From contig QVRM01005406.1 in the NCBI GenBank assembly GCA_003439945.1, positions 82,501 to 146,500 of the forward strand: a stretch of DNA of 64,000 nucleotides, given 5' to 3'. The position numbers and the translations under genes are program-made. Below the pieces are notes generated by a model, which saw only the letters and a program-made list of their open reading frames with translations, made no database searches and was not told the origin of the DNA. Shown here in pieces: positions 19,850 to 57,898 of the stretch; the first letter of the stretch is position 1, and each line of letters opens with the position of its first letter. This stretch comes from Dermanyssus gallinae. Taxonomy: Eukaryota; Arthropoda; Arachnida; Mesostigmata; Dermanyssidae.

Positions 19850-20467
19850 TGTTCATACTAAGTTGTCGTGTTTTCGTAACAGTGCGTAAAATTGTTGCTA
19901 TTTCAGTGGTTAGTAAGTGTTTCTAAAGTGAATCTATACCGTAACGAATAGTGTGCAGGTTAAGTCTCTCTAGACAATATCTACATCTTATACTACCTGG
20001 AAACCGGCGCTTTCACATTCATAATCGGACTTTCAATCATCATCATCAGCATCATCAGTGTGTATTATCTACCATCTACAACCCAACTACCGCCTTCAGC
20101 GCTCTCATCATTAGTGCACCGTTCACCAGTTAGTTGTTACTCATAGTCGGCATCATCACCACCACAGCCACCATCACTATCAACACCCAGTACTACAATA
20201 CCTCACCATCAAGTACCATCTTAAGCATTATCGTCACTAGCACATCTTCATCGTCATCATCACTCATTCCAGCTGATTAATCTTTTCGTGGCGTTTCGAA
20301 TTAACAACGTCACCGCCAGTGTCAGTTGTTTATTTACATTCCATAAAGGGTGGGCTGGTTAAGAAGGGATCGTTCCCGGTCACACAGGTGTCGTAGTCTA
20401 AGTGGCAACGCCGCTATCTACGCACTTGACGAACCGGGTTCAAATCCTTTTTTTTTTTTTTTTTGAA

Positions 20468-22000
20468 ATGCCGTTGAAACGCACTCCACCGCGTAAGCGC
20501 CATGATAGTGAGGCGCCGGATTTGCCGGCATCAGTGTCAACAGATCGCCGGTCAAATGAATCCATCGCTGGAATCATGGAGACAGACGATCGCGCAACTC
20601 GCGTTGCTGGAGGACGAGAAAAGCGCGCTGCATCGAGCCCCATCGAGGATGTGCGAGTGAAAGATTGCCGTGTATCGCATGAAGATTCCCCCCATTCAAG
20701 CGCAGACGTACAGAGCGAAGCAGAAAAAGAAGTACAGTGTGATAAGGAGGGTGAACCTGATGATACAGGGTTTATTACCGTGCACCGCCATAAAAGATCG
20801 CAGGCCCCAAAGGTGGTTGTGACCAGGCAAGAGGCAGTGATATTTTCTGCCGGCGGCGAAGAGCTACAGAATAATTTCAACAAGGTCTGTGACTATATTG
20901 TGGGCCATGTCAAGGGGAAAATCGAAGAACCCCGCTTTACGAAAACTGGAGAGCTTGTCATTGTTGTTGATGCTGAAGAGGATAGGGGCACCTTGCTGTC
21001 ACTGCAAGAGCTAGCGGGTGTTAAAGTATCTGCCAGAATAAGTGGAGGGCGCTCTTCTGTCAAAGGCAAAATATCCGGTGTGCACCCGTCAATCTCAGAA
21101 GCTACCATCCTATCTGCACTAAGATCATTAGGAGTAACCGAGGTAGCTCGAGTTAAAACCAAAAATCCGATGACCAACGTTGTATCAGCAACTGAACACG
21201 TAATCTTAACATTTACTGGCAATCACTTTCCATCGGAAATACGCTTGGGCCTAAAGAAGCATGGGGTTGTGTTATACTGCGATCCAATGCAGTGTTTTAG
21301 ATGCTACAGCATGGATCACTTTGCCGCAGATTGCAAGGTTTCGAAGCCAAAATGTAGAAGATGTGGCTCGCTAGAACATCTTAGGAGAGATTGCAAGGCT
21401 CAGGCCAAATGTTGCCTATGCAGCGGCGAGCATGAAGCCACGTGGGGTTCGTGCCCCGTACGATTGAGCCGTATAGAAATGTTGAAGCGGGGCTTTCGGA
21501 ATGTTATTCAGAGGCAACCTGACGCTCCAACTCTACCACTTTGCGCCCCCGTAGAGTACGTTCAACCGTCTGATAACTTTTCGAAGCGCAGCTGGTCATC
21601 TGTGGTAAAGAATGGTACGAAGGTGAACAACGACACAATGAACACTCGAGAAGTTGGACAGTCAAAGTCGAAACCTGTGGAAATAAGCGAAAAAGCGTTG
21701 CCTTCAATGGACATAGCTGCAGATCTTGTACAAGGTTTACTAGACAAGGTTGTCCCCTGTATCATCAAAGCGGTTCAAACAGCGGTAACCAGTGTATTTG
21801 AAAAGTTGTTTCCCTCTCTGCTCTGTAGGGCAACCGCAGAAGAGATGGGTGGTGACTTGAGCAAAGCCACTGGAGCTACTTCCCTTGAAAAAACCTTGCA
21901 ACACTCTATTGAAGCCTCCTTGCGCGATGCACTTTGCACGCTATCATGTAACCAAGGTGTAAAGACGAGCAAGCGCGACAGGCCTCCTGGAGGCTCCTGA
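20468..22000 (+). CDS. Retrotransposon ORF1: nucleic-acid-binding gag-like protein with three zinc knuckles
   Basis: Start chosen at ATG 20,468 (context GAAATGC), just after a T19 run; the frame is open further upstream but without ATG. The product is about 510 residues. The N-terminal 100 residues are charged and low complexity (rich in Arg, Glu, Ser). A middle region of about 200 residues (from about residue 120) may hold an RNA-binding fold. About residues 275-330 contain three Cys-His knuckles: CFRCYSMDHFAADC, CRRCGSLEHLRRDC and CCLCSGEHEATWGSC. Such proteins coat the element RNA in the cytoplasm and form the particle that carries the reverse transcriptase. It ends at TGA 21,998-22,000, and the downstream ORF2 is in exactly the same frame. 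No internal break was seen. Confidence 0.88.
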   Translation: MPLKRTPPRKRHDSEAPDLPASVSTDRRSNESIAGIMETDDRATRVAGGREKRAASSPIEDVRVKDCRVSHEDSPHSSADVQSEAEKEVQCDKEGEPDDTGFITVHRHKRSQAPKVVVTRQEAVIFSAGGEELQNNFNKVCDYIVGHVKGKIEEPRFTKTGELVIVVDAEEDRGTLLSLQELAGVKVSARISGGRSSVKGKISGVHPSISEATILSALRSLGVTEVARVKTKNPMTNVVSATEHVILTFTGNHFPSEIRLGLKKHGVVLYCDPMQCFRCYSMDHFAADCKVSKPKCRRCGSLEHLRRDCKAQAKCCLCSGEHEATWGSCPVRLSRIEMLKRGFRNVIQRQPDAPTLPLCAPVEYVQPSDNFSKRSWSSVVKNGTKVNNDTMNTREVGQSKSKPVEISEKALPSMDIAADLVQGLLDKVVPCIIKAVQTAVTSVFEKLFPSLLCRATAEEMGGDLSKATGATSLEKTLQHSIEASLRDALCTLSCNQGVKTSKRDRPPGGS

Positions 22001-24856
22001 CCGGCTTGCTCAGCAGTAACAAACGCACCAGTACAAAAACAACCGCAACGTACTCAAGACAAGAGATCGCTACTTAAATTCTTTCAATGGAACTGTGAAG
22101 GCATTAAATCAAGTTACCCACTTCTTCCTTTAGCTAAGCAGTATGACGTGTTGGTCCTTACTGAGACATGGGCCACCAAACCTACAGTCGTTCCAAGTTG
22201 GTGTATAGCGGAATGCCTGGGTGTACAAACAGAGGGACCGGGCAGAACAAGTGGTGGAGTTGCAGTGTTGTTTAACAGCAAGCTCGCTGGCGCAAAAACA
22301 TGCTACAAAGAGGATAACTGCGTAGTCCTAACAGGAACCGCCATTAACGTCATTGCAATATATTCAAGTCCTTCAGAAGCTATTTCAACACTGCTGGAGA
22401 AATTAGTACTATGTCTTGACATGGTGGACTTACACAAAGTGACTGTAGTATGCGGTGATCTCAACTGTCGGCTTGACAAACCAAGATGTATAAGAACGGT
22501 ATCACTACTCAACGCCTTGGCATCTCGCAGTATGTGGGTTATATCTACAGCTGAAGATTCGACATTCGTCGCGCCTCACGGACAATCTACGATTGACATT
22601 TTCGCCACAAATGCTAACCCATGTAATGTCAAGTACAGGGGGGTGCAGGAGAAGACTCTGGCGTTCGGTGCAAGGTGGCACCTACCCGTCGCAATGGAAA
22701 TATCAATTGAACCTCATTCTACAGATCACAAGCGGCCTTGTCTAAGTCGCAATCTGAATCTTAGCCTTTTGACGGTTACCTCGCGAAACATAGTCCCAGT
22801 GCCAACCGTGATCAACGTGGAATCCTATGCCACCAGCATTCGAAGTGCCATTACTGCTAGCGCTCGGCTAAAGCAACAAACGGAAAGCAAGCGAACAAAC
22901 AGAAAGCACGCTCCATGGTACAATCAGGAGTGCGCTTCTTGCAAACACTATATGATTCAAGCATACATTTTAGCAAAAATCCGCCCGGAGATGACTTATT
23001 TTTATACTAGATTAAGTCGTGACTATAAAAGAGTTGTAAAAAACGCCATTAAAGAATATGAAGAACGAAAACAATACAAGCTGCTCCTAGAAGCGCAACA
23101 ACGACCTCATAAGTGGCTGCAGACAGACAGGCGCGTTACTGCGTGTTCTATCCCACATGATATACTAAATGCTCATTTCCGGCAAATGTTTGCCAGTGCC
23201 ATTACCGTTCCGAGCTGCGCTCCTGTGATAATGTCAGTGTGGGACGAGCGCGTCACTGACGCCCGTCAAGCCCTGTCGCGGTCTTTTAGCAATTCTGAAG
23301 TTATCGACTCAATAATGAAAGCACCGTCCGGGAAGGCCCCGGGGCTCGATTTGGTCACAAATGAGCATCTTAAGCAAGCGATTCACCTTGCGCCTTGTTT
23401 TACCAGACTTTTTAACGAGGTGATGAAAACGGTCCAACTACCCTCGGAATGGAAAACCAGTCTTCTTAGCATTATCCCTAAAGGAAAAGGAGATCCGCTA
23501 GCACCGTCGTCTTACCGAGGTATCGCAAAGAAGAGCGCAATCTACAAACTTCTGTCGGCTATCCTAGCCCGTAGATTAGAACATTTTCTTGAGATTAACA
23601 GAAAGCTGCCGGAGCAACAACATGGCTTCAGAAGGGGCCGGTCAACAATGACAGCATGTGCTGTACTTCTAAATTCGATACAACGGGCACTTCGAACTAA
23701 GGGGCCTTATCTATTTGCTGTATTTGTAGATTTTAAAGCGGCCTTTGATACGGCCGCTCGAACAATTATACTTGACAAGCTGGCTTTTTGCGGGATCTCA
23801 TTGAATATATTGGAGCTCATTAAAGGTATTTTACAGGAAGGACAAGTTATTATAGATGACGGAGGCGCTAAACACATGGCGATCTTACAGACCACTGGTG
23901 TTGCCCAAGGTGATAATCTTAGCCCCCTGCTGTTTTCGGTGCTGGTGAGTGACCTTCCTGAAGAGATACGGAGTCGGCACTCGCAGGTAGACGTCCCTAT
24001 GTATGCAGACGACTTGGTGCTATATTCTCGCAGTCGATTCCATTTGCAACAATCCCTTGCGACCTTGCAGCATTACGTTCATCGAAACCAGTTGGAAATA
24101 AATTTAGATAAAACAAAGGCAATGAAGTTTAGACGCGGAGGGAAATTGGCTGGAATCGACAAACTACGGTTAGGTTCAAAATCTATAGAATTTGTCTCGC
24201 ACTTCTTATACCTAGGGGTTATGTTCTCGTCTCGAGGTACGAACTTCTCGAGACACATTGATGAACGAATTCGGAAAGGACTACAGTCCTTTCATAGCAT
24301 CCGAGACCCTCATAAACTATCAATGGACGTTGCCGTTCATCTCTTTAACCTGAAGATTGCGCCTACTGCTTCTTACGGTATACAGGTGATATGGCCGCAT
24401 CTGACGAAGTTAAACTTTAAGGCGCTTGACCAAATCAAGGCCGCTTTTCTAAAAAAGGCGCTAAGAGTCCACCGCACTAGTCTCAACAGATTAGTCTATT
24501 TACTGGCGTCGACTCCGCTATTTGTTGAGAATTTACAAAAAATCCACGTGTTACCGAAAACGGCAGCTTTCAACGAGTACATGTCTGAATGGGAGAATAA
24601 GATGGCAGACATTGACCCGCTCTTTTATGAAACCCAGGCAATGACGTGTACTTCATGGAAGCGCTGCAACTATGAAAATAGACACTTAATTGCACGATTT
24701 GCTGTACATGGCTTCCACATGAAGATCTGTATTCGAGATAAATTCCATGAAATTTCCTCGTTATGCTTGTGCAAACTTTGCGGGAGACAGTGTGATTTAT
24801 ATCACCTTCAACGATGCGATAGAACAGTTCCGTTGACTCGACTTTTAGAACCGTGA
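22001..24856 (+). CDS. Retrotransposon ORF2: endonuclease plus reverse transcriptase
   Basis: The frame is open from the codon after the ORF1 TGA to TGA 24,854-24,856 (951 codons). Endonuclease motifs are FFQWNCEGIK (catalytic Asn, about codon 27), TETWA (Glu), CGDLNC, STIDIFAT and GARWHLPV, where the usual SDH triad has Trp in place of Asp. Reverse transcriptase motifs are YRGIAKKSAIYKLL, EQQHGFRRGRST, AVFVDFKAAFDTA (motif A), VAQGDNLSPLLFSVL (B), MYADDLVLYS (C, intact catalytic pair) and LDKTKAMKFRRGG (D). A Cys-His cluster CKLCGRQCDLYHLQRC is at the end. The first in-frame ATG comes after the first catalytic motifs, so initiation at an ordinary ATG cannot give a working enzyme. Read-through or reinitiation from ORF1, or an ancestral fusion interrupted by a nonsense change, is needed. 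Confidence 0.9.
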   Translation, partial: PACSAVTNAPVQKQPQRTQDKRSLLKFFQWNCEGIKSSYPLLPLAKQYDVLVLTETWATKPTVVPSWCIAECLGVQTEGPGRTSGGVAVLFNSKLAGAKTCYKEDNCVVLTGTAINVIAIYSSPSEAISTLLEKLVLCLDMVDLHKVTVVCGDLNCRLDKPRCIRTVSLLNALASRSMWVISTAEDSTFVAPHGQSTIDIFATNANPCNVKYRGVQEKTLAFGARWHLPVAMEISIEPHSTDHKRPCLSRNLNLSLLTVTSRNIVPVPTVINVESYATSIRSAITASARLKQQTESKRTNRKHAPWYNQECASCKHYMIQAYILAKIRPEMTYFYTRLSRDYKRVVKNAIKEYEERKQYKLLLEAQQRPHKWLQTDRRVTACSIPHDILNAHFRQMFASAITVPSCAPVIMSVWDERVTDARQALSRSFSNSEVIDSIMKAPSGKAPGLDLVTNEHLKQAIHLAPCFTRLFNEVMKTVQLPSEWKTSLLSIIPKGKGDPLAPSSYRGIAKKSAIYKLLSAILARRLEHFLEINRKLPEQQHGFRRGRSTMTACAVLLNSIQRALRTKGPYLFAVFVDFKAAFDTAARTIILDKLAFCGISLNILELIKGILQEGQVIIDDGGAKHMAILQTTGVAQGDNLSPLLFSVLVSDLPEEIRSRHSQVDVPMYADDLVLYSRSRFHLQQSLATLQHYVHRNQLEINLDKTKAMKFRRGGKLAGIDKLRLGSKSIEFVSHFLYLGVMFSSRGTNFSRHIDERIRKGLQSFHSIRDPHKLSMDVAVHLFNLKIAPTASYGIQVIWPHLTKLNFKALDQIKAAFLKKALRVHRTSLNRLVYLLASTPLFVENLQKIHVLPKTAAFNEYMSEWENKMADIDPLFYETQAMTCTSWKRCNYENRHLIARFAVHGFHMKICIRDKFHEISSLCLCKLCGRQCDLYHLQRCDRTVPLTRLLEP

Positions 24857-24940
24857 TGAATATATGTATATGTGAATGTGTGCTTTCTCTGTACGCGCAA
24901 TATTGTAAACCAACCATCGGTTAATAAAGCTATTATGTTA

Positions 24941-24954
24941 TGTTCATTAAATCA
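24941..24954 (+). repeat. Target-site duplication, right copy
   Basis: TGTTCATTAAATCA, identical to 19,836-19,849. It is at once the end of the retrotransposon insertion and satellite-derived sequence. Confidence 0.88.
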
Positions 24955-27900
24955 GGTTGTTCTTAGAACCGGTTCGTTCTTAAAAACAGCCTGTTTTTAG
25001 AATCGGCTCGCTCTCAGAACCAGTAACTATCTGGTTCTTAGAACTAGTTTGTTTTTGCAACCGTTTTGTTCTTAGAACCAGCTCGTTATTTAGAACCGTC
25101 TTGTTCTTAGAACCATCTCGTTCTTAGACCCGGCTTGTCCTGAAAACCGGCTTGTTTTTAGAATCGGTTTGTTCTTAGAACCAGCTCGTTAATAGAACCA
25201 ACTCGTTTATAGAACCAGCTTGTTCTTAGAACCGGCTCGTTACTAGAATCGGCTTGTTCTTGGAACCAGCTCGTTCTTGGAACCAGCTCGTTCTTAGAAC
25301 CGGCTTGTCTTGAGAACCGGCTTGTTTTTAGAACCGGCTTGTTCTTAGAGCCAACTCATTTATAAAACCAACTCGTTTATAGAACCAGCTTGTTCTTAGA
25401 ACCGGCTCGTTACTAGAACCGGCTTGTTCTTGGAACCAGCTCGTTCTTAAAACCAGCTCGTTCTTGAAACCAGCTCGTTCTTGAAACCAGCTCGTTCTTA
25501 GAACCGGCTTGTTCTTAAAACCAGCTCGTTCTCAGAACCAGCTCGTTTTAAAAACCGGCTCGTTTTAAAAACCGGCTTGTTCCTAGAACCGGCTCGTTCT
25601 TAGAGCCAGCTTGTTTTTAGAACCGGGTCGTTCTTAGAACCAGCTCGTTCTTAGAACCGGTTTGTTCTTAGAACCAGCTTGTTCTTAGAACCAACTCGTT
25701 CTTAGAACCAGCTCGTTCTTACAACCGTCTTGTTCTTAGAACCATCTTGTTCTCAGAACCAGCTTGTTCTTAGAACCAGCTCGTTCATAGAACCGGCTCG
25801 TTCTTAGAACCGGCTTGTTCTTAGAACCAGCTCGTTCGTAGATCCGGCTCATTCTTAGAACCGGCTCGTTCTTAGAACCGGCTCGTTCTTAGAACCGGCT
25901 CGTTCTTAGAACCGGCTCGTTCTTAGAACCGGCTCGTTCTTAGAACCGGCTCGTTCTTAGAACCGGCTCGTTCTTAGAACCGGCTCGTTCATTGAACCGG
26001 CTCGTTCTTAGAACCGGCTTGTTCTTAGAACCAGCTCGTTCGTAGATCCGGCTCATTCTTAGAACCAGCTCGTTCTTAGAACCGGCTCGTTCTTAGAACC
26101 GGCTCGTTCTTAGAACCGGCTCGTTCTTAAAACCGGCTCGTTCTTAGAACCGGCTTGTCCTGAGAACCGGCTTGTCCTGAGAACCGGCTTGTTCTTAGAG
26201 CCAACTCATTTATAAAACCAACTCGTTTATAGAACCAGGTTGTTCTTAGAACCGGCTCGTTACTAAAACCGGCTTGTTCTTGGAACCAGCTCGTTCTTGA
26301 AGCCAGCTCGTTCTTGAAACCAGCTCGTTCTTGAAACCAGCTCGTTCTTGAAACCAGCTCGTTCTTAGAACCGGCTTGTTCTTAAAACCAGCTCGTTCTA
26401 AGAACCAGCTCGTTCTAAGAACCAGCTCGTTTTAAAAACCGGCTCGTTTTAAAAACCGGCTCGTTTTAAAAACCGGCTCGTTTTAAAAACCGGTATGTTT
26501 TAAAAACCGACTTGTTTTAAAAACCGGCTCGTTCTTAGAACCGGCTCGTTCTTAGAACCAGCTTGTTTTTAGAACCGGGTCGTTCTTAGAACCAGCTCGT
26601 TCTTAGAACCGGTTTGTTCTTAGAACCGGTTTGTTCTTAGAACCGGCTCGTTCTTAATACCGGTTTGTTCTTAGAACCGGTTTGTTCTTAGAACCGGCTG
26701 GTTCTTACACAGGTTCGTTCTTAGAACCGGCTGGTTCTTACACAGGTTCGTTCTTAGAACCGGTTCGTTTTTAGAACAGGTTCGTTCTTAGAACCATCTC
26801 GTTCTTAGACCCGGCTTGTCCTGAAAACCGGCTTGTTTTTAGAATCGGTTTGTTCTTAGAACCAGCTCGTTAATAGAACCAACTCGTTTATAGAACCAGC
26901 TTGTTCTTAGAACCGGCTCGTTACTAGAATCGGCTTGTTCTTGGAACCAGCTCGTTCTTGGAACCAGCTCGTTCTTAGAACCGGCTCGTTCTTAGAACCG
27001 GCGTGTCTTCAGAACCGGCTTGTTTTTAGAACCGGCTTGTTCTTAGAGCTAACTCATGTATAGAACCAACTCGTTTATAGAACCAGCTTGTTCTTAGAAC
27101 CGGCTCGTTGCTAGAACCGGCTTGTTCTTGGAACCGGCTTGTTCTTGGAACCAGCTCGTTCTTAGAACCAGCTCGTTCTTACAACCGTCTTGTTCTTAGA
27201 ACCGGCTTGTTCTTAGAACCATCTTGTTCTTAAACCGGCTTGTTTTTAGAACCATCTTGTTCTCAGAACCGGCTTGTTCTTAGAACCAGCTCGTTCTTAG
27301 AACCGGCTTGTTCTTAGAACCAGCTCGTTCGTAGATCCGGCTCATTCTTAGAACCGGCTCGTTCTTAGAACCGGCTTGTCCTGAGAACCGGCTCGTTCTT
27401 AAAACCGGCTCGTTCTTAGGACTGGTCCGTTCTTAGAACCGGCTCGTTCTTAGAACCGGCTCGTTCTTAGAACCGGCTCGTTCTTAGAACCGGCTCGTTC
27501 TTAGAACCGGCTCGTTCTTAGAACCGGCTCGTTCTTAAAACCGGCTCGTTCTTACAACCGGCTTGTCCTGAGAACCGGCTTGTTCTTAGAGCCAACTCAT
27601 TTATAGAACCAACTCGTTTATAGAACCAGGTTGTTCTTAGAACCGGCTCGTTACTAAAACCGGCTTGTTCTTGGAACCAGCTCGTTCTTGAAACCAGCTC
27701 GTTCTTGAAACCAGCTCGTTCTTGAAACCAGCTCGTTCTTGAAACCAGCTCGTTCTTGAAACCAGCTCGTTCTTGAAACCAGCTTGTTTTTAAAACCAGC
27801 TCGTTCTAATAACCAGCTCGTTTTAAAAACCGGCTCGTTTTAAAAAAACGTCTCGTTTTAAAAATCGGCTTGTTTTAAAAACCGGCTCGTTCTTAGAACC

Positions 27901-30900
27901 GGCTCGTTCTTAGAACCAGCTTGTTTTTAGAACCGGGTCGTTCTTAGAACCAGCTCGTTCTTAGAACCGGTTTGTTCTTAGAACCGGCTTGTTCTTTGAA
28001 CCAACTCGTTCTTACAACCAGCTCGTTCTTACAACCGTCTTGTTCTTAGAACCGGCTTGTTCTTAGAACCGTCTTGTTCTCAGAACCGGTTTGTTCTTAG
28101 AACCAGCTCGTTCATAGAACCGGCTCGTTCTTAGAACCGGCTCGTTCGTAGAACCAGCTTGTTTTTAGAACCAGCTCGTTTATAGAACCGGCTCGTTTTT
28201 AGAACCGGCTTGTTCTTAGAACCAGCTCGTTCATAGATCCGGCTCATTCTTAGAACCGGCTCGTTCTTACACAGGTTCGTTCTTAAAACCGGCTCGTTTT
28301 TAGAACAGGTTCGTCCTTAGAACCAGCTCGTTCCTAGAATCGGCTCGTTCTTAAAATCAGCTCGTTCTTAGAACCGGCTCGTTCTTAGAACCGGCTTGTT
28401 CTTAAAACCAGCTCGTTCATAGAACCGGCTCGTTCTTAGAACCGGCTGGTTCTTACACAGGTTCGTTCTTAGAACCGGCTCGTTTTTAGAACAGGTTCGT
28501 TCTTAGAACCATCTCGTTCTTAGACCCGGCTTGTCCTGAAAACCGGCTTGTTTTTAGAATCGGTTTGTTCTTAGAACCAGCTCGTTAATAGAACCAACTC
28601 GTTTATAGAACCAGCTTGTTCTTAGAACCGGCTCGTTACTAGAATCGGCTTGTTCTTGGAACCAGCTCGTTCTTGGAACCAGCTCGTTCTTAGAACCGGC
28701 TCGTTCTTAGAACCGGCTCGTTCTTAGAACCGGCGTGTCTTCAGAACCGGCTTGTTCTTAGAGCTAACTCATGTATAGAACCAACTCGTTTATAGAACCA
28801 GCTTGTTCTTAGAACCGGCTTGTTGCTAGAACCGGCTTGTTCTTGGAACCAGCTCGTTCTTAAAACCAGCTCGTTCTTGAAACCAGCTCGTTCTTGAAAC
28901 CAGCTCGTTCTTAGAACCGGCTTGTTCTTAAAACCAGCTCGTTCTAAGAACCAGCTCGTTCTAAAAACCAGCTCGTTTCAAAAACCGGCACGTTTTAAAA
29001 ACCGGCTCGTTCTTAGAACCGGCTCGTTCTTAGAGCCAGCTTGTTTTTAGAACCGGGTCGTTCTTAGAACCAGCTCGTTCTTAGAACCGGTTTGTTCTTA
29101 GAACCAGCTTGTTCTTAGAACCAACTCGTTCTTAGAACCAGCTCGTTCTTACAACCGTCTTGTTCTTAGAACCGGCTTGTTCTTAGAACCATCTTGTTCT
29201 CAAAACCGGCTTGTTCTTAGAACCATCTTGTTCTCAGAACCGGCTTGTTCTTAGAACCAGCTCGTTCTTAGAACCGGCTTGTTCTTAGAACCAGCTCGTT
29301 CGTAGATCCGGCTCATTCTTAGAACCAACTCGTTCTTAGAACCAGCTCGTTCTTAGAACCGGCTCGTTCTTAGAACCGGTTTGTCCTGAGAACCGGCTCG
29401 TTCTTAAAACCGGCTCGTTCTTAGAACCGGCTCGTTCTTAGAACCGGCTCGTTCTTAGAACCGGCTCGTTCTTAGAACCGGCTCGTTCTTAAAACCGGCT
29501 CGTTCTAAGAACCAGCTCGTTTTAAAAACCGGCTTGTTCTTAGAACCGGCTCGTTCTTAGAGCCAGCTTGTTTTTCGAACCGGGTCGTTCTTAGAACCAG
29601 CTCGTTCTTAGAACCGGTTTGTTCTTAGAACCAGCTTGTTCTTAGAACCAACTCGTTCTTAGAACCAGCTCGTTCTTACAACCGTCTTGTTCTTAGAACC
29701 ATCTTGTTCTCAGAACCAGCTCGTTCATAGAACCGGCTCGTTCTTAGAACCGGCTTGTTCTTAGAACCAGCTCGTTCGTAGATCCGGCTCATTCTTAGAA
29801 CCGGCTCGTTCTTAGAACCGGCTCGTTCTTAGAACCGGCTCGTTCTTAGAACCGGCTCGTTCTTAAAACCGGCTCGTTCTTAGAACCGGCTTGTCCTGAG
29901 AACCGGCTTGTTCTTAGAGCCAACTCATTTATAAAACCAACTCGTTTATAGAACCAGGTTGTTCTTAGAACCGGCTCGTTACTAAAACCGGCTTGTTCTT
30001 GGAACCAGCTCATTCTTGAAACCAGCTCGTTCTTAGAACCGGCTTGTTCTTAAAACCAGCTCGTTCTAAGAACCAGCTCGTTCTAAGAACCAGCTCGTTT
30101 TAAAAACCGGCTCGTTTTAAAAACCGGCTCGTTTTAAAAACCGGTATGTTTTAAAAACCGACTTGTTTTAAAAACCGGCTCGTTCTTAGAACCGGCTCGT
30201 TCTTAGAACCAGCTTGTTTTTAGAACCGGGTCGTTCTTAGAACCAGCTCGTTCTTAGAACCGGTTTGTTCTTAGAACCGGCTTGTTCTTAGAACCAACTC
30301 GTTCTTACAACCAGCTCGTTCTTACAACCGTCTTGTTCTTAGAATCGGCTTGTTCTTAGAACCGTCTTGTTCTCAGAACCGGCTTGTTCTTAGAACCAGC
30401 TCGTTCATAGAACCGGCTCGTTCTTAGAACCGGCTTGTTCTTAGAACCAGCTCGTTCATAAATCCGGCTCATTCTTAGAACAGGCTCGTTCTTAGAACCG
30501 GCTCCTTCTTAAAACCGGCTCGTTCTTAGAACCGGCTCATTCTTAGATTCGGCTCGTTCTTAAAATCGGCTCGTTCTTAGAACCGGCTTGTCCAGAGAAC
30601 CGGCTTGTTTTTAGAACCGGCTTGTTCTTAGAGCCAACTCATTTATAGAACCAACTCGTTTATAGAACCAGCTTGTTCTTAGAACCGGCTCGTTACTAGA
30701 ACCGGCTTGTTCTTGGAACCAGCTCGTTCTTGAAACCAGCTCGTTCTTGAAACCAGCTCGTTCTTGAAACCAGCTTGTTCTTAGAATCGGCTCGTTACTA
30801 GAACCGGCTTGTTCTTGGAACCAGCTCGTTCTTGAAACCAGCTCGTTCTTGAAACCAGCTCGTTACTAGAACCGGCTTGTTCTTGGAACCAGCTCGTTCT

Positions 30901-33900
30901 TGAAACCAGCTCGTTCTTGAAACCAGCTCGTTCTTGAAACCAGCTCGTTCTTAGAACCGGCTTGTTCTTAAAACCAGCTCGTTCTAAGAACCAGCTCGTT
31001 TTAAAAACCGGCTCGTTTTGAAAACCGGCTTGTTTTAAAAACTGGTTTGTTTTAAAAACCCGCTCGCTCTTAGAACCGGCTCGTTCTTAGAACCGGCTCG
31101 TTCGTAGAACCAGCTTGTTTTTAGAACCAGCTCGTTTATAGAACCGGCTCGTTTTTAGAACCGGCTTGTTCTTAGAACCAGCTCGTTCATAGATCCGGCT
31201 CATTCTTAGATCCGGCTCATTCTTAGAACCGGCTCGTTCTTACACAGGTTCGTTCTTAAAACCGGCTCGTTTTTAGAACAGGTTCGTCCTTAGAACCAGC
31301 TCGTTCCTAGAATCGGCTCGTTCTTAAAATCAGCTCGTTCTTAGAACCGGCTCGTTCTTAGAACCGGCTTGTTCTTAAAACCAGCTCGTTCATAGAACCG
31401 GTTCGTTCTTAGAACCGGCTGGTTCTTACACAGGTTCGTTCTTAGAACCGGCTGGTTCTTACACAGGTTCGTTCTTAGAACCGGCTCGTTTTTAGAACAG
31501 GTTCGTTCTTAGAACCATCTCGTTCTTAGACCCGGCTTGTCCTGAAAACCGGCTTGTTTTTAGAATCGGTTTGTTCTTAGAACCAACTCGTTAATAGAAC
31601 CAACTCGTTTATAGAACCAGCTCGTTCTTAGAACCGGCTCGTTCTTAGAACCGGCGTGTCTTCAGAACCGGCTTGTTTTTAGAACCGGCTTGTTCTTAGA
31701 GCTAACTCATGTATAGAACCAACTCGTTTATAGAACCAGCTTGTTCTTAGAACCGGCTCGTTGCTAGAACCGGCTTGTTCTTGAAACCAGCTCGTTCTTA
31801 AAACCAGCTCGTTCTTGAAACCAGCTCGTTCTTGAAACCAGCTCGTTCTTAGAACCGGCTTGTTCTTAAAACCAGCTCGTTCTAAGAACCAGCTCGTTCT
31901 AAAAACCAGCTCGTTTTAAAAACCGGCTCGTTTTAAAAACCGGCTCGTTCTTAGAACCGGCTCGTTCTTAGAGCCAGCTTGTTTTTAGAACCGGGTCGTT
32001 CTTAGAACCAGCTCGTTCTTAGAACCGGTTTGTTCTTAGAACCAGCTTGTTCTTAGAACCAACTCGTTCTTAGAACCAGCTCGTTCTTACAACCGTCTTG
32101 TTCTTAGAACCGGCTTGTTCTTAGAACCATCTTGTTCTCAAAACCGGCTTGTTCTTAGAACCATCTTGTTCTCAGAACCGGCTTGTTCTTAGAACCAGCT
32201 CGTTCTTAGAACCGGCTTGTTCTTAGAACCAGCTCGTTCGTAGATCCGGCTCATTCTTAGAACCGGCTCGTTCTTAGAACCGGCTCGTTCTTAGAACCGG
32301 CTCGTTCTTAGAACCGGCTTGTCCTGAGAACCGGCTCGTTCTTAAAACCGGCTCGTTCTTAGGACTGGTCCGTTCTTAGAACCGGCTCGTTCTTAGAACC
32401 GGCTCGTTCTTAGAACCGGCTCGTTCTTAAAACCGGCTCGTTCTTACAACCGGCTTGTCCTGAGAACCGGCTTGTTCTTAGAGCCAACTCATTTATAGAA
32501 CCAACTCGTTTATAGAACCAGGTTGTTCTTAGAACCGGCTCGTTACTAAAACCGGCTTGTTCTTGGTACCAGCTCGTTCTTGAAACCAGCTCGTTCTTGA
32601 AACCAGCTCGTTCTTGAAACCAGCTCGTTCTTAGAACCGGCTTGTTTTTAAAACCAGCTCGTTCTAATAACCAGCTCGTTTTAAAAACCGGCTCGTTTTA
32701 AAAAAAACGTCTCGTTTTAAAAACCGGCTTGTTTTAAAAACCGGCTCGTTCTTAGAACCGGCTCGTTCTTAGAACCAGCTTGTTTTTAGAACCGGGTCGT
32801 TCTTAGAACCAGCTCGTTCTTAGAACCGGTTTGTTCTTAGAACCGGCTTGTTCTTTGAACCAACTCGTTCTTACAACCAGCTCGTTCTTACAACCGTCTT
32901 GTTCTTAGAACCGGCTTGTTCTTAGAACCGTCTTGTTCTCAGAACCGGTTTGTTCTTAGAACCAGCTCGTTCATAAAACCGGCTCGTTCTTAGAACCGGC
33001 TTGTTCTTAGAACCAGCTCGTTCATAAATCCGGCTCATTCTTAGAACCGGCTCGTTCTCAGAACCGGCTCCTTCTTAAAACCGGCTCGTTCTTAGAACCG
33101 GCTCGTTCTTAGAACCGGCTCGTTCTTAAAACCGGCTCGTTCTTAGAACCGGCTCGTTCTTAGAACCGGCTCGTTCTTAGAACCGGCTTGTTCTTAGAGC
33201 CAACTCATTTATAGAACCAACTCGTTTATAGAACCAACTTGTTCTTAGAACCGGCTCGTTACTAGAACCGGCTTGTTCTTGGAACCAGCTCGTTCTTGAA
33301 ACCAGCTCGTTGTTAGAACCGGCTTGTTCTTAAAGCCAGCTCGTTCTAAGAACCAGCTCGTTTTAAAAACCGGCTCGTTTTGAAAACCGGCTCGTTTTGA
33401 AAACCGGCTTGTTTTAAAAACTGGCTTGTTTTAAAAACCGGCTCGTTCTTATAACCGGCTCGTTCTTAGAACCGGCTCGTTCTTAGAACCGGCTCGTTCT
33501 TAGAACCGGCTCGTTCGTAGAACCAGTTTGTTTTTAGAACCAGCTCGTTCATAGAACCGGCTCGTTTTTAGAACCGGCATATTCTTAGAACCAGCTCGTT
33601 CATAGATCCGGCTCATTCTTAGAACCGGCTCGTTCTTACACAGGTTCGTTCTTAAAACCGGCTCGTTTTTAAAACAGGTTCGTTCTTAGAACCAGCTCGT
33701 TCCTAGAATCGGCTCGTTCTTAAAATCAGCTCGTTCTTAGAACCGGCTCGTTCTTAGAACCGGCTCGTTCTTAGAACCGGCTTGTTCTTAAAACCAGCTC
33801 GTTCATAGAACCGGCTCGTTCTTAGAACCGGCTGGTTCTTACACAGGTTCGTTCTTAGAACCGGCTCGTTTTTAGAACAGGATCGTTCTTAGAACCAGCT

Positions 33901-35433
33901 CGTTCCTAGAATCGGCTCGTTCTTAAAATCAGCTCGTTCTTAAAACCAGCTCGTTCTTAAAACCAGCTCGTTTTTAGAACAGGTTCGTTCTTAGAACCGG
34001 CTCGTTCTTAGAACCGAGTTGTTCTTAGAACCGACTTGTTCTTGAGACCGGCTTGTTCTTAAAACCGGCTTGTTCTTAGAACTGGCTTATTCTTAGAACC
34101 GGCTTGTTCTTAGAACCGGCTTGTTCTTAGAACCGGCTAGTTCTTAGAACCGGCTTGTTCTTAGAACCGGCTTGTTCTTAGAACCGGCTTTTTCTTAGAA
34201 CAAGGTCGTTCTGAGAACCAGCTCGTTCTTAAAACCGGCTTGTTCTTAGAACCGGCTTTTTCTTAGAACCAGCTTGTTTATAGAACCAAATGGTTCTTAA
34301 TACTGTCTTGTTCTCAGAACCAGCTCGTTCATAGAACCGGCTCGTCCTAAAAACCGGCTTGTTCTTACAACCGGCTCGTTCTTAGAACCGGCTCGTTCTA
34401 AGAACCGGATCGTTTTTAGAAGCAGCTTGTTCTTAGAACCGGCTCGTTCTTAGAACCAGCTTGTTCTTAAAACTGGTTTGTTCTTAGAACCGGTTTGTTT
34501 TTAGAACCGGTTTGTTCTTAGAACGGGCTCGTTCTTAAAACCGGCTCGTTCTTAGAACCGGCTCGTTCTTAAAACCGACTTGTTCTTAAAACCAGCTCGT
34601 TCTTAAAATCGGTTTGTTCTTAGAACCGGTTTGTTCTTAGAACCGGCTTGTTCTTAAAACCGGCTTATTCTTAAAACCGGCTTATTCTTAAAACCGGCTT
34701 ATTCTTAGAACCAGCCTGTTTATAAAACCAGCTCGTTTTTAGAACCGGCTCGTTCTTAGGACTGGCCCGTACTTAAAACCAGCTCGTTCTTAGAACCGGC
34801 TTCTTCTTAGAACCAGCTTGTTCTTAGAACCAGCTCGTTCTTAGAACCAGCTCGTTCTTAGAACCGGCTTGTGCTCAGAAGCAGCTCGTTCTTCAAACCG
34901 GCTGATTCTTAAAACCGGCTCGTTCTTAGGACTGGCCCGTTCTTAGAACCGGCTCGTTCTTAGAACCGGCTCGTTCTTAGGACTGGCCCGTTCTTAGAAC
35001 CGGCTCGTTCTTAGAACCGGCTCCTTCTTAGAACCAGCTTGTTCTTAGAACCAGCTCGTTCTTAGAACCAGCTCGTTCTTAGAACCAGCTCGTTCTTAGA
35101 ACCGGCTTGTGCTCAGAAACGGCTCGTTCTTAAAACCGGCTCGTTCTTAAAACCGGCTCGTTCTTAGGACTGGTCCGTTCTTAGAACCGGCTCGTTCTTA
35201 GAACCGGCTCGTTCTTAGAACCGGCTCATTCTTAGAACTGGCTTGTTCTTAGAACCGGCTCGTTCTTAGAACCGGCTCGTTCTTAGAACCGGCTTGCTCT
35301 TAGAACCGGCTTGTTCTTAGAACCGGCTTGTTCTTAGAACCGGCTTGTTCTCAGAACCGGCTTGTTCTAAGAGCCGGCTTGTTCTAAGAGCCGGCTTGTT
35401 CTTAGAGCCGGCTTGTTCTTAGAACCGGCTTGT
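24941..35433 (+). repeat. Satellite array, 17-bp monomer, about 10.5 kb (roughly 600 units)
   Basis: The dominant monomer is CCGGCTCGTTCTTAGAA, repeated head to tail in one orientation, with variants at the CT/CAG position (CCGGCTTG, CCAGCTCG, CCGGTTTG), at the A-rich end (TTTTAAAAA, TTCTTGAAA, TTATAGAA) and 16-bp forms (ACAGGTTCGTTCTTAG). Identical units occur in runs (for example 25,850-25,990). Marked variant blocks recur across the array, so it grew both unit by unit and by duplication of longer blocks. No open frame of 60 codons exists in it because each unit carries TAG/TTAG. It is too long and regular for a gene, and no unique spacers separate the units. The right end dissolves at CTTGTTGTTTAAACATATAT near 35,433. 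A role in heterochromatin is possible but not shown by the sequence. Confidence 0.95.
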
Positions 35434-36268
35434 TGTTTAAACATATATAGACTCCCTGTAGAATTTTTTAGAGTTCTGCAACACACAAGATGAACCAGAA
35501 AGGGCCAGAGTATCACCTTGAGCAACTCTGGTTGTCAGCCTAAGTTCTCGTCGATGCAATGTGCTTAATTACAAATCGTAATGATATTAGAATGTTTGGA
35601 TAATATGCTTTTTATTAGATTACACATAGATCTTCGTATAGTAAATCATCCCACGTATTTGTCAAGGCGGTTTGTGGTTTCCTTTCCTTTTGTGGATCAG
35701 TTGGGGAAGGCTTTGGTGTACGGCGTTGTTTTAGACAGTGCTGTTAACACTGGGGTCACAACCATGCCCACGTCCGGTCCGGATGACCCCCCGATCTTCT
35801 TACAATGTATTGCTTAATAGATGTCCTCTTCAACAAAGTTGTGCCTAGTTGGGCCGACGTGATTGGTGGAGTTGTTTCGTTTAGACAGGGCAACCTGCAT
35901 TATCGGAGTTTGCGCTTGCCAACTGCTCCACCGCCGACATTGTAACTCACATGATGGAGACATGGGTGGTCCCGGGGAGTAGCGTAACCTGAATGCTCTC
36001 ATGAAAGAGAAGACACGACTAGAACAAAATCAAAGAGCTCGAATTGAAAGTCGAGAGAAGTGGCCGAGGGGGCTTCACAAAGGGCCAGCATACAACCAGG
36101 TCTTCCGCAGGGTCACCACGCACCCCCGGTTCCTGAAACAATTCAATTATATTTATTTTGTTGATTCATCATATAATTAATCACTCAGATTAATTATAAT
36201 ATACAGTTCAAGATGTTTCTTCATAATACTCTATCTTCTTCACGCTTTCGGCGAGAGAAGTAGTGCAA
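35434..36268. other. Unassigned DNA right of the satellite
   Basis: A 78-codon plus frame at 35,581-35,817 and a minus frame at 35,814-36,002 are not recognised. No repeat or RNA gene was seen. Confidence 0.5.
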
Positions 36269-36478
36269 TTATGTTTTTTCCAGCGCTGTGTATTCCATTG
36301 CATGGTACTTGGCACACCTCTGCAGGCAGAACCGGCAAGTGCACAACTCGTACTCCTCGTGAAAGGCTGCGTTTGAACATACTAGATAGTGATAACCATG
36401 CACTATGTACCTGGTGTATACGTGGCGACTGTCACATGCAGGGCCAGACCAAAGGTGCACGGCATTGAAAACGTTCAA
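36269..36478 (-). pseudogene. C-terminal fragment of a non-LTR ORF2 related to the 19.8-24.9 kb element
   Basis: The minus frame reads HVYTRYIVHGYHYLVCSNA, then FHEEYELCTCRFCLQRCAKYH. It lines up with RHLIARFAVHGFHMKIC and LCLCKLCGRQCDLYHLQRC at the end of the intact ORF2. Only about 60 residues remain, and the start is interrupted. It lies 1.5 kb from the larger related fragment at 38.0-39.1 kb, so the two may be pieces of one insertion split later or two separate copies. Confidence 0.65.
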
Positions 36479-38006
36479 ACCACCGACCTCCCGTCTGGCC
36501 TGTTCGACTTTAGCTTCTCATTCAGAAATGAAACATTCGTATGGTACTGTACGCGGCATCTTCCTGAAACAAACCTACCGAGAGATCCATGAGAGCTCGA
36601 AGTAACAGACTTCTTCCTCATGGCCTTGAAGTAGTGCCACATAAATTCGAGTCTTGAGGGGGTGGGGAGGAAGACGGGTTTTAGTGGGTATAAGTCTCAC
36701 ACTAGAAGCTGAAGATTGCTAGTCTCTGCTTGTGCATAGTGCATTTCCCAAAAACCTTTGAAAAACAGAGTGGTCTGCTGCTGCAGTAGGCTGGATAAGT
36801 GACGTAACTAATTTCTGTCAGCTATAATAGGATTTGGCGGTCGTTTTAGAAAGAGAACCCACGGCTTTGGTACACTGTCTCTTACTGTTTGTTCTCTTTG
36901 TTTTATTTCAAATTCAAGCATTTCGGCCTCCGTGTGATAATGCGGCTCATAGGGAAATAAGACCCAAAGCTCTAAGACACGTCTATCTCTGCAAAACGAC
37001 GGGGCTTTTCACAGTTGCGAAGGCACCACGCGCGACGCAGTTGCCTTGCATAGGTGAATCACCGAATCTCTGCAGAGAGAACTGCCAAACGCGTGACTAG
37101 TTGACGCTCACCCCATCTCACCAAGGCTGCGTCGTATTAGCATAGGAACAAGGAGAACTTTGCTGCGTTTACGAGTCGTAAGAATAAAAATTAAATGTTT
37201 CCGGGTTTGTGGCAAACAAATATGTTTTTAATGTGATATTCCCATGCAAAATCACCCGTCCAGCTGCATAGAAGGTCAGTGTAAATAGTCAAAGTGAACA
37301 TTATCCTTACGTAAAGTATACTAATGGTAATATGCATGTATAAATGGATTTATTGGTGGCATCTAACCTAAGTACGCTGCGCTTAGGGTGGCAAAATAAG
37401 CGGACATATGAAGATATCTAGGGTTTCCCCAATAGTCCTTGTTATAGCATGGTCGCTGAGAGAAAAATTCGTCACCCATTACATTTCACTTTAGGAGTAT
37501 TTTGTACTCACACTAGCAGCGCGATAATTAATATGTATGCAAGCAACTAAACGACAATTCAATTTGTTTTAGACCACTTTTGTGTGCTAAATGTTTGGCG
37601 AAATTGATGATTTACTGCTACCCCGTTAAGCCAACGCTCTGAAAAGGCTACATAAGATGAATGTTAGGATATACAAGTCCGCTGTAAGCCCTGATCACAG
37701 CCTACTGCCCACGCAAACAGAGAAGTCGCCGGTCTGCGCCATGATAAATCGGACCGTTGACTAATTTTTATTAATTATTACATCACCTTTTGGTATTGTT
37801 GGTTACATTACATTACACTTATTCATTAAATCTCGGAAACGGCATTCGTTTCCGTTAATCCTGGACATATATAGAATATGTTGTATATGCATCTCCGAAA
37901 GATGTCAGCGACCTAACGCCCAGATAGCTGGCGCTGACCGACATGTTTTATGATGATATTTGGTGCAGACAAGGCCGCAAAATTTGCATCAACACTCATC
38001 GGAGGG
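36479..38006. other. Unassigned intergenic DNA
   Basis: No gene recognised; an 88-codon plus frame at 36,834-37,100 matches nothing I know. Confidence 0.5.
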
Positions 38007-39060
38007 TTATGGAACCCAGTGCGGTGGCACAGTTTGTGGTGGAGCCCATGCACGGAAGTAGCGGGTGAGAACGTGTCGTTGCTCGAAGAGAGGTTCCATC
38101 CATGTATTGTCCAACATTGCCGGTGTTTTGTAGAACGCTTCTGGTACTTTCCTTATCTTCTGCTCGAAGTGCCTACGGAACTCTCGCAGTGACGCGGTGG
38201 TCGGAAGTTGGAAGCGATTTACCAGATCCTCGATGAACGGCGTGGTCCTAGACAGACTATAAGTTAGCCTGTTTTGTGCATTTCTAGGGAGGCCCAAAAC
38301 TCTCTTAAGGAACGTTGCCTTCACCGTGTCGAGAGCTTTAAGCGCTGAGCGGGCAGGTGTTCCCAAATTAATGTGATACCATAAGATGCCACCGAGGCCA
38401 CCTTCAGGTTAAACAGTATTAGAGCTGTTTTTACTGAGAGCTTCTGTGGAGCCGAGATTGAGGTCATGGCGACGACGCTGCTATTAATTCGCTGAGATAT
38501 GTGGGCCGCGAAGGATGTGCCACTTGGCCTTAGTGTAACACCCAGGTAAGTAAACTCCGAGACAAATTCTACAAAGAAGCTGAGCCTATCACTTCTCTAC
38601 AGGGGTCCCCCGGATCTGAATTTCATAGCTTTTGTCTTCGATACGTTAATCGTTAAACCATTTTGCTTGCTGTATGTCTCCAGCATCCTCAGGGACCTTT
38701 TTAAATCCATGAACACTCTACTGTATACCACTAGGTCATCGGCATACGGAGTTATGCGGACACAGGGGTAGTGGTCATTGATAAGGCCCGGAATATCACT
38801 GAGTAAAACTGAGAATAAGAGCGGGCTAAGATTATCGCTCTGGGGATAGCCGGTGGTTTGTAGGAAAGGTTGGTATTCCTGAATGCCGTCATCTAGAACG
38901 ACCGGGTTTACTTTCAGGACAGCTGCCAGTATCCCTAAAACTCGTGGGCCCACGCCCGCGGCGGCTAGCTTCTCCATGACAATATCCCTGGGGGCAGTGT
39001 CAAACGCCGCCTTGTAGTCTACAAATACAGCGTACAGTGCTTGGTGCTTGACGGTGACCG
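38007..39060 (-). pseudogene. Non-LTR reverse transcriptase, C-terminal half, broken
   Basis: The minus strand carries YAVFVDYKAAFDTAPRDIV (motif A), LQTTGYPQSDNLSPLLFSVL (motif B, with QSDN where QGDN is usual), ITPYADDLVVYSR (motif C intact) and VSKTKAMKFRSGG (D). It then continues in other frames with FTYLGVTLRPSGTSF, LFNLKVASVASYG, and KATFLKRVLGLPRNAQNRLTYSL. The order and many residues match the ORF2 of the 19.8-24.9 kb element, so this is an older relative. At least two frame changes (near 38,590 and 38,365) and a missing N-terminal part make it inactive. The region upstream of motif A is found on the opposite strand next door (39,130-39,300). Confidence 0.85.
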
Positions 39061-39129
39061 AGCGCTTCAGGTGAATTCCAGCAACCTGGTCGGCATGCTT
39101 GCTAAAGGTCACCCCCAAAAACCCGCTTT

Positions 39130-39300
39130 GTCCATCCTCTTGGCAAGGCATTGCAAAGAAAAGCTCCATCTACAAAATAATGTCATAGCTTAGCTTCTAT
39201 CTCGAAGCAAGAGGAATGATCCCTCCGGAACAACATGGATTTCGCGCGAGACATTCGACAATGACCGCATCCCAGGAGCTTTTAGACGAGGTTGACTAAT
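39130..39300 (+). pseudogene. Reverse transcriptase fragment in inverted orientation
   Basis: The plus strand encodes GIAKKSSIYKIMS, a stop, then YLEARGMIPPEQHGFRARHS and TMTASQELLDEVD before TAA at about 39,297. These correspond to the fingers region (YRGIAKKSAIYKLL, EQQHGFRRGRST) that should sit just upstream of motif A in the minus-strand fragment at 38,007-39,060. The segment therefore looks inverted relative to its neighbour. Confidence 0.7.
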
Positions 39301-46340: not shown

Positions 46341-46754
46341 TTTATTATTTTTGCTATTGTTGTTAGTGATGGTGAAGTGCTAGAGCTGATGTCTAGTCGC
46401 AGCAGTGGTGGAAGTGCGAGTGTTATGCTGCTACTGTCGTTTGAAAATCCAGAAGAGCCGGCGCTGGTAGCCGGCTGCCACCTAACGGTAGCAGAGGGAG
46501 GAAGGAAGCGAAAGCGATTCGCGTTGCGTAAATCTACCAGCAAAATCACTTAATGATTTTAATGTTAGCTAAAGAAGAAGAAAAAGACAAACATTTTTTG
46601 TCATGTCACTGAAAATGCAGAGGCTATCATCAGCCAACTGAAGCGTCAACACTGCAAAATCGTCCCGCAACTCCTCAAACGAATTCACTGTGCACTTTGC
46701 GACAACGTGTTAGCAGCACTCTAATTGCAGAAATATAATAATAATAATAATAGG

Positions 46755-49071
46755 GAGATATCCGTTCGGCGGCTCACACGCTCCTGTCCGTTGACACCTT
46801 TGCACCACCAGATGACCATACCTATCAGGAGCTCATAAACAAGCACCCCGCCCCGCCGACCAGTGCAAGTATCGATAATCTTCCAGCACCGAATCCTCAG
46901 GAAACATGTGTTGCGCAGGAGAAACTAATAGCCGACGCTGTACGATTTTTTGCGCTGGCATCCGGCCCTGGACTTGACGGACTCCGGCCTCGTCACCTAC
47001 GCGACATGCTGGATTGTATGGTGCCCTCTTCCGAGAGATTATTGACGGAATTGTGTTCCCTGGTTAATTTGGCTTTGAACGGTAAACTACCATCTTTTTG
47101 CCTTCCGATTTTTTACGGAGCCGAACTGACAGCACTAAAAAAGAAAGACGGCACCATTAGGCCCATAGCATGCGGCCTCACCTTGCGGAGACTGGCTGCA
47201 AAAGTTGCAATCGTGGTAAATCGAAGAGCAATTAGTAGTGCCGTTACGCCAAAGCAAGTTAGTGTTTCAGTAAAAGGTGGGGCCGAGGCTGCAGCACACG
47301 CGGTTCGAGGATTCATAGAGGCGGACGGTCCCCCACGTGTGGTGGTAAAGCTCGATTTTCGAAATGCCTTTAACACCATCCGACGCGACGTAATTCTCAA
47401 TGAAGTGAAATCGAAAGTGCCCCAGCTTTTCCCATTTACATTGCAGAGCTACAGCAAGCCATCGCTACTATCTTGGGCCGATAAGGAACCTCTCCTTTCA
47501 TCCAACGGTGTACAACAGGGCGATCCGCTCGGCCCCGCTCTGTTCAGTATTGGAATCTCTGAGATAGTGGCCCGTATGGACAGTCCATTAAACGTTTGGT
47601 ATCTGGACGACGCCACCTTGGGAGGCCCAATAAACTCAGTTGTCGGTGACATTCTCAATGTTTTAAGGTCCGCAGACGAAGGAGGACTGGAACTAAATCC
47701 TTCTAAATGCGAAATCATCGCCGTAGGCGGAGATTCCCACGAGCAGGGCGAAATGTTCAGAACCATCGAAAACATCTTGCCCGGATCGAAGAGAGTTGAT
47801 CAGGCGGACCTGGAAATTCTAGGTGCCCCGATTGGAGCTCGAAGAATTCTTGAGACGATTACAGTTAAGCGCAACGCGCTTTTGCGGATTAAACCCCGCC
47901 TCATCGCAATGCACCCGCAGGCAGCTCTTTGCCTCTGGAGATATAGCTTAGGCTCGCCAAGGTTGAATTACATCCTGCGGACCTCCCCTGCGAGCAACGA
48001 GCTGGCCGGCCTGCAGGACTTCGACGACACCGCAAGGGAAATTCTAGGTGAAGTTCTTAACGTCACTCTGACTGACCATACCTGGCAAAGGGCAAGTCTT
48101 CCCCTTAGGGAAGGGGGGCTTGGCATCAGGTCCGTGACGGAGCTTGCGCCCGTATGTTATGCGGCTTCGCTACTAGAATTTGCACAACTCGCTGGGACCC
48201 TCGTCGAGCCTAATATTCGTCATGTAATACAAGTGACGAAAGACAAGGCCGAGCTAGCTGCAAGAAACGTCATAGGCCCTGGTCCCTGGGAGGAGCGCCC
48301 TACACAGCATACGCTTGACGGTTATAGGTGCAACATTGTGGGTCGAATCTTCTCGATAGCATGCAATCCCCCACGGAGAGAGCGGTTTTTATAGCCGCCC
48401 GAGACACCTCTAGTAGCGGATACCTAAGGGCTCTACCCTCGCCGCAGCTGGGCACCATGCTGGACAATACCTCCTTCCGCATGGTGACAGCGCTCCGAAT
48501 TGGAGCTCCCATATGCGAGCCATACACCTGCTCAGCCTGTGGGACGCCTGTAGAGAGTAACGGCCTTCACCCCCTGAGCTGCATCAAAAGCCAAGGAAGA
48601 GCCGCTAGGCACGCGGAACTTAACTCGATCATAAGGAGAGCCCTGCGTCGTGCAGGCATACCGAGTACGCTGGAGCCCAGACTCGATACAAGCAGTGACA
48701 GGAGGCCCGACGGAGTCACTATTCCATTGTGGTCTTGCGGTAAGTGTCTGGCATGGGATACAACAGTATCCTGCACTGTTGCCTCGTCCTACCTGCGACA
48801 CAGTGCCCTTGAGGCCGGCTGGGTCGCCGAACATGCAGATCGAGAAAAAAGACGAAAGTACAGGGACTTAGAGCCCAGATACCACGTCGTGCCTATCGCT
48901 ATGGAAACACTAGGTCCCGCTAGTAAAGGCACAAGGAGATTCATTAAAGAGCTTGGCGAGCGGATACAGGAGAACACAGGCGACCGACGAGAGAGCGAGT
49001 TTCTGCGGCAGTTGCTCTCGCTGGCGGTATGCAGAGGTAACGCTGCCTGTATAATCGGGTCAATGTTTTGA
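46755..49071 (+). pseudogene. Reverse transcriptase with C-terminal Cys-His and PD-(D/E)XK-like nuclease, one frameshift
   Basis: The frame is open from 46,751; the first ATG is 47,006. The 5' part reads ASGPGLDGLRPRHLRDM, then RPIACGLTLRRLAAKVA, KLDFRNAFNTIRRD (motif A), NGVQQGDPLGPALFSIGI (B) and VWYLDDATLGG (C, YLDD, intact). A single frameshift near 48,345-48,360 moves to the second frame. That frame carries CSACGTPVESNGLHPLSC (Cys-His finger), RRPDGVTIPLWSCGKCLAWD (PD...WD, nuclease-like core), PIAMETLGPASKG and FIKELGERI, with the stop at 49,069-49,071. RT followed by such a nuclease is the architecture of site-specific R2/CRE/NeSL/R4-type elements; calling the nuclease is inference from the PD...WD pattern. 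If the frameshift is an assembly error, this copy would be nearly intact 3' of its truncation. Confidence 0.8.
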
Positions 49072-51358: not shown

Positions 51359-51366
51359 TATAAATA
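51359..51366 (+). promoter_or_regulatory. TATA box of cuticle gene 1
   Basis: TATAAATA lies 131 bases upstream of the ATG and predicts a transcription start near 51,390. The same octamer precedes the two other cuticle genes. Confidence 0.75.
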
Positions 51367-51496
51367 CGAAGCGGCGTTACAGCTGGGGAACAGAAAGAAT
51401 TCCTTTCGAAGCACGCCAACAGGAGCAGTTCGGCAAGTCGATCACTCGTTCACTCACTCCTCATTCGTCAACTCAAGCCGCCCTCGTCGAGTAGCC

Positions 51497-55994: not shown

Positions 55995-56121
55995 AGTCCG
56001 GGGGACAAGATGCTAAGCAGTGGTCCGAGGGGGCCTGTGGGTGTGTCACCGGCGCGAAAGAAAACAGGTGAGTGGTTGCGATGGATGCCCTAGCCACCTT
56101 GGACAACACCCAGACCAGCCT

Positions 56122-56145
56122 ATATATATATATATATATATATAT
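56122..56145. repeat. (TA)n microsatellite
   Basis: A short TA tract next to the mariner-like fragment. Others of the kind are at 57,042-57,067, 57,236-57,259, 61,837-61,861 and 62,015-62,032. Confidence 0.9.
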
Positions 56146-57890: not shown

Positions 57891-57898
57891 TATAAATA
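57891..57898 (+). promoter_or_regulatory. TATA box of cuticle gene 2
   Basis: TATAAATA, 61 bases before the ATG; the predicted start is near 57,922. The 250 bases upstream are conserved with the promoter of gene 3. Confidence 0.8.

Follow-up and report, generated by a model that had tools for sequence, protein, structure and literature searches.

A LINE family of Dermanyssus gallinae with ORF1 and ORF2 in one frame around a conserved UGA, a candidate for stop-codon readthrough

Results

The window (the whole stretch analysed here, 64,000 nucleotides of Dermanyssus gallinae contig QVRM01005406.1) carries at 20468-24856 the two open reading frames of a non-LTR retrotransposon, the parts of which are as follows.

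19864..20467, plus strand: 5' untranslated region as present in the window; the alignment of long copies begins at 19864, with common sequence further out
20468..22000, plus strand: ORF1, 510 aa, with a CCHC zinc knuckle (PF00098), ending in TGA; homologues P0032 and P0033
21967..22011, plus strand: hairpin surrounding the TGA; no other 50-nt window in the coding part of family A is more stable
21998..22003, plus strand: in-frame stop with its context, UGA-CCG, the proposed readthrough site; TGA-CCG in 39/39 other copies
22001..22084, plus strand: ATG-free linker in the same frame; disorder predicted for its first 21 residues
22001..24856, plus strand: ORF2 frame with APE-type endonuclease and reverse transcriptase (PF03372, PF14529, PF00078; endonuclease fold; selection)
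24857..24944, plus strand: second TGA and 3' untranslated tail, the end of which is TTATGTTATGTT

ORF1 starts with the ATG at 20468 and stops with the TGA at 21998-22000, and ORF2 follows directly as 951 open codons in the same phase, an arrangement that an earlier note on this DNA had pointed out and that coordinates and translation confirm. The ORF1 product matches P0032, an ORF1 from a public assembly (510 aa, 99% identity, 6 residues differing), and is homologous to P0033 (503 aa, 52% identity). Pfam finds PF03372 and PF00078 in ORF2, with PF14529 slightly under its cut-off, and gives no RNase H match in the element. An APE-fold endonuclease and a reverse transcriptase are combined in one ORF, as is characteristic of APE-type LINEs, and the 5' truncation, target-site repeats and many copies expected of a LINE were all found. 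The window copy is itself 5'-truncated, other copies extending upstream with common sequence. Scans of viral, bacterial and phage collections found no relatives, a plasmid collection gave one reverse transcriptase match at 26.5% identity, and bacterial matches to a query with 18 fixed bases numbered 12, against about 7 expected by our own estimate.

A tRNA-like stretch occupies 20348-20467 of the 5' untranslated part, with GGTTCAAATCC, which we take to be a tRNA-like B-box motif, and a T-run directly before the ORF1 ATG. ARAGORN found no tRNA at this place; because long copies align through it, the stretch is part of the element and not a neighbouring SINE. Where the element ends, on its 3' side, an array begins (24959-35434) in which a 17-bp unit (GTTCTTAGAACCGGCTC) occurs about 616 times. 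Further along the window lie broken and rearranged reverse transcriptase fragments of a related family (36302-39293, up to 49% identical to ORF2), another retroelement, whose reverse transcriptase-like frame of 546 codons continues in a second frame (46754-49071), and, within 51272-63106, three cuticle-protein-like frames of, in our impression, tick-like character (51272-52279, 57943-58635 and 62444-63106), the last two closely similar.

Other copies of the family of the window element, termed family A, were sought with positions 21800-22200 as query against the 959 Mb assembly, in which 40 places of 475 candidates were scored; one of these is the window and the other 39 were read. All 39 have TGA at the position of 21998, followed by CCG, and none has a sense codon there, the outcome of a comparison that the earlier note had proposed; a private nonsense mutation is therefore rejected. 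Three of the 39 copies (L042, L055 and L038) have flanks in common with another copy, and at least 12 are 5'-truncated and carry, at or close to their two ends, repeats of 7-16 bp, which fits independent insertion events. The median difference between family-A copies and the window is 1.4%, and because 521 of the 951 ORF2 codons show no variation in these young copies either, invariance of the TGA within family A alone is weak evidence. Since a common frame has a chance of about 1 in 3, one copy alone likewise proves little, and it is the further copies and families that carry the argument.

The layout of ORF1, TGA and ORF2 in one frame was also found in three further families, B, C and E. P0033 belongs to family B of this genome (99% match), family C matches P0033 at about 80%, and family E was found using P0001. 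The B and C junctions were read in 28 of 85 matching rows, mostly the best-scoring ones, and have TGA at 24/24 B loci (L060-L062, L067, L071, L077-L095) and at 4/4 C loci (L063-L066). L097, the only family E copy read at length, has an A-like ORF1 end (SIEASLREAL) followed by TGA-CCA and by ORF2 in the same frame, and two further E copies (31 bases each) agree with it, bringing the total for E to 3/3. The base at +4 is C in 23/24 B loci (the exception being L088), 4/4 C loci and 3/3 E copies. For all four families together, the window included, TGA is present at 71/71 of the junctions read and TGA-C, the leaky context that the earlier note had recognized in the window, at 70/71. This context is peculiar to the junction, because ORF2 itself ends in a single TAG (TAG-A) in the B and C copies read and in a tandem TGATGA in A (24854-24859 in the window; 32/34 family-A copies reaching that point). 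Behind the junction, ORF2 is open for 952 codons in two of four B copies and for 957 codons in three of four C copies, the remaining three of those eight having an in-frame stop after 111, 808 and 99 codons. Between A and B, ORF2 is identical at 38% of residues, with synonymous sites saturated.

A frame offset between ORF1 and ORF2, which the earlier note had named as speaking against its reading, is thus absent from A, B, C and E, but it does occur in a relative. In family D, the family nearest to P0001, ORF1 and ORF2 lie in different frames and overlap; in the D copy L096, 57 codons were read, which are part of a 436-aa open frame present there and in 12 other rows, and ORF2 opens in another phase behind a TAA. 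ORF2 expression in family D must therefore work differently, and the clade does not have one expression mode throughout.

For a wider tally, queries were read through the TGA and stops were counted inside each match, whatever their position within it. With queries for A and E-like copies, 147 of 150 matches lie over the junction, and of these 141 have at least one TGA, three only TAA and three no stop. With queries for B and C, among the 150 matches listed of 151, at least one TGA is present in 147, no stop in two (C5671 and C6958) and only TAG in C568, the alignment of which is probably shifted in frame; read by letter, C568 (the same as L089) has the junction TGA. A long frame with a single TGA in the match was found in 9 B rows and 11 C rows, 20 together (1,457-1,470 codons), in four A rows, the window among them (1,462-1,488 codons), and in one E-like row (1,453 codons). 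Stop-less matches amount to 5/297 over the junction, one of them at 97% identity, and the 297 matches include neither a stop-less row with a frame above 987 codons nor any sizeable group of young, full-length copies that lack the stop.

Selection was examined in family A from codon differences, with the window as reference and an assumed transition weight of 3. Variants found in a single copy are near neutral, with 51 synonymous, 127 nonsynonymous and 7 nonsense changes in ORF1 and 108, 219 and 24, respectively, in the ORF2 core. The corresponding numbers for variants in 2-4 copies are 11, 17 and 0 in ORF1 and 44, 46 and 5 in ORF2, and those for variants common to five or more copies, which arose in source elements, are 6, 10 and 0 in ORF1 (ratio 0.67) and 35, 23 and 0 in ORF2 (ratio 0.26). 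This last set indicates that the ORF2 behind the TGA is used, and constraint on ORF1 is weaker. Between and within the other families, the dN/dS of ORF2 is 0.13 for B-C (at a dS of 0.69), 0.26 for B-B and 0.17 for C-C. As judged from these substitution patterns, ORF2 behind the TGA is under purifying selection. The stop is kept both among copies and between diverged families, with selection acting on either side of it, the pattern by which the earlier note proposed to recognize programmed readthrough; its ORF2 part is clear, and its ORF1 part is the weaker one (6 synonymous to 10 nonsynonymous).

The first in-frame ATG of ORF2 lies at 22421, within the endonuclease, and QWNCEGIK has its Q at position 29 counted from the stop, which bears out the claim that this motif is upstream of any in-frame ATG. 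A structure model of the first 233 residues after the TGA (9-row alignment, mean pLDDT 85) predicts disorder for residues 1-21 and a strand at 27-31 (FFQWN), and the best PDB match of the model by E-value is the L1 endonuclease (2.1e-11). Translation begun at 22421, inside the modelled endonuclease fold, would therefore give a protein that lacks the catalytic Asn and several strands. The distance from TGA to WN is 29 codons in A, 31 in B and 36 in C, so that the linkers differ in length by whole codons, and they are stop-free except in the broken B copy L067; the B copy L084 has a frameshift there. Constraint on the linker is weak (B-C dN/dS of 0.54-0.56 over 31 codons), the family A linker variants (4 synonymous and 9 nonsynonymous in total) being too few to judge. 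A likeness between P0001 and the residues that directly follow the TGA (PA.SA) was not significant (p 0.46), and a likeness between the C-terminus of P0033 and the N-terminus of P0001 (p 0.022) was taken as chance in low-complexity sequence, the two belonging to different families.

The hairpin around the TGA ranks first of 868 50-nt windows in A, with 27/1000 shuffles as stable; it is not claimed as a signal because no hairpin like it was found in B or C. In family A, the sequence 3' of the TGA belongs to the least structured parts of that family (ranks 800-858 of 858-868). No stimulating RNA structure 3' of the stop was found: in A, B and C alike, the sequence that follows the TGA is no more stable in secondary structure, pseudoknots apart, than shuffles; a long stem suggested by the fold of B was rejected because its stability was no better than that of shuffles. 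Such 3' structures are present in a minority of readthrough cases. The strong UGA-CUA context is absent from A, B and E. The UGA-C found here is in agreement with the preference for TGA and C at +4 among readthrough candidates in Drosophila and Anopheles (PMC5100048).

Discussion

The common frame in four families, linkers of whole codons, the fixed TGA-C and the lack of an early AUG in A together point to readthrough. On the strength of these sequence comparisons, we regard it as quite probable that programmed readthrough of UGA-C yields an ORF1-ORF2 fusion from a two-ORF APE-type LINE, and of the three explanations offered by the earlier note (readthrough, reinitiation and a nonsense change) readthrough is the one best supported. 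Most ribosomes would terminate at the UGA and release the ORF1 protein, which has zinc knuckles and is presumably RNA-binding, whereas in a minority a near-cognate tRNA would insert an amino acid at the UGA, and these ribosomes would continue across a short, flexible linker and translate the endonuclease and reverse transcriptase, the outcome being small amounts of an ORF1p-ORF2p fusion. We infer the decoding of the UGA, the ratio of the products and the fusion as the working form from this arrangement. Beyond the single element, it seems likely, if with somewhat less assurance, that a long-lived LINE clade produces its polymerase by readthrough as a fusion of the Gag-Pol-like form ORF1-UGA-ORF2, retained even as ORF2 identity between families dropped to about 38%, and that LINEs too set the structural-to-enzyme ratio by a leaky stop.

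The alternative that survives best, although we consider it unlikely, is that a ribosome ending at the TGA restarts a few codons on, at CUG, at AUG or at some further non-AUG codon, in the manner of SART1 except that no AUG overlaps the stop. This mode is described for SART1 and proposed for L1 (PMC2881922, PMC5972666), and families B and C offer possible starts, with CUG as the second codon after the TGA (UUG in L060, and AUG in the two B copies L078 and L082) and an AUG directly before WN; for these two families, reinitiation therefore stays a rival. On the other hand, near-cognate codons are few, with a single AAG between the TGA and WN in family A, in which no AUG precedes 22421, excluding a restart at a nearby AUG there, and with AAG and ACG but no AUG in the 15 codons read after the TGA in E. 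Were the AUG preceding WN used in B and C, the protein would start within the first endonuclease strand (FFQWN, residues 27-31 of the family A model). An overlapping stop and AUG of the SART1 type is absent at the junctions read, including those of L078 and L082. Reinitiation, moreover, requires no common frame of ORF1 and ORF2, yet all four families have one. Splicing of the element RNA that would remove the TGA and join the frames is scarcely credible, because, although a raw count gives 16 frame-keeping GT/AG pairs around the TGA in family A, spliced RNA could not transmit a TGA that is present in 71/71 junctions read. Equally improbable is a fused ancestral ORF with one nonsense change, in which TGA copies would be dead and moved in trans: stop-less matches do exist (3/147 for A and E-like, including the one at 97% identity, and 2/150 for B and C), but their frames do not exceed 987 codons, ORF2 is under purifying selection in TGA-bearing lineages, and the TGA at every junction read in four families refutes this part of the earlier proposal.

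Gammaretroviruses use readthrough of a gag-UAG-pol arrangement with a downstream pseudoknot. The readthrough proposed here would resemble theirs in the single in-frame stop between an RNA-binding protein and a polymerase, but the element is a LINE, the stop is UGA-C, and no structure was found. Another way of joining two functions in one frame is 2A StopGo, the hallmark of which is an NPGP motif. No such motif was found at the junction in the translations read. L1Tc and the sea-urchin LINEs with 2A StopGo (PMC5972666) are alike in having ORF1 and ORF2 functions in one frame, whereas a real stop codon stands at the junction here. With SART1 of the silkworm and L1 (PMC2881922, PMC5972666), the element would have in common that ORF2 translation depends on ribosomes reading ORF1; unlike them, it has no stop-start overlap, one frame, and in A no AUG near the stop. 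By features rather than by a tree, the element is most readily compared with Jockey-superfamily type LINEs (PMC4120745, PMC3905857), which likewise have an ORF1 with zinc knuckles, an ORF2 with APE endonuclease and reverse transcriptase, no RNase H match, 5' truncation and target-site repeats; the difference is that here ORF2 lies in frame behind a single UGA with no early AUG. In the open-licence literature, Repbase entries apart, we found no description of a LINE with a conserved in-frame stop and readthrough, in keeping with the remark of the earlier note that this expression mode would be unusual for a two-ORF non-LTR element.

The mode of ORF2 translation in two-ORF LINEs is known for few elements, such as SART1 and L1. 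If readthrough holds, the ORF1 protein and the polymerase would be joined in a single polypeptide and produced in a fixed ratio, with consequences for cis preference and RNP assembly, and LINEs would share the gag-stop-pol plan with retroviruses. The families described here also represent natural sequence variation for testing what makes a UGA leaky in this host.

A separate observation concerns the relation of families A and B, in which ORF1 is 52% identical (82% in aa 151-200) and ORF2 38%, the reverse of expectation. Judging from these identities, the element at 20468-24856 may combine, as a mosaic, a B-like ORF1 with a different ORF2, and exchange of ORF1 is discussed for the Jockey superfamily (PMC4120745).
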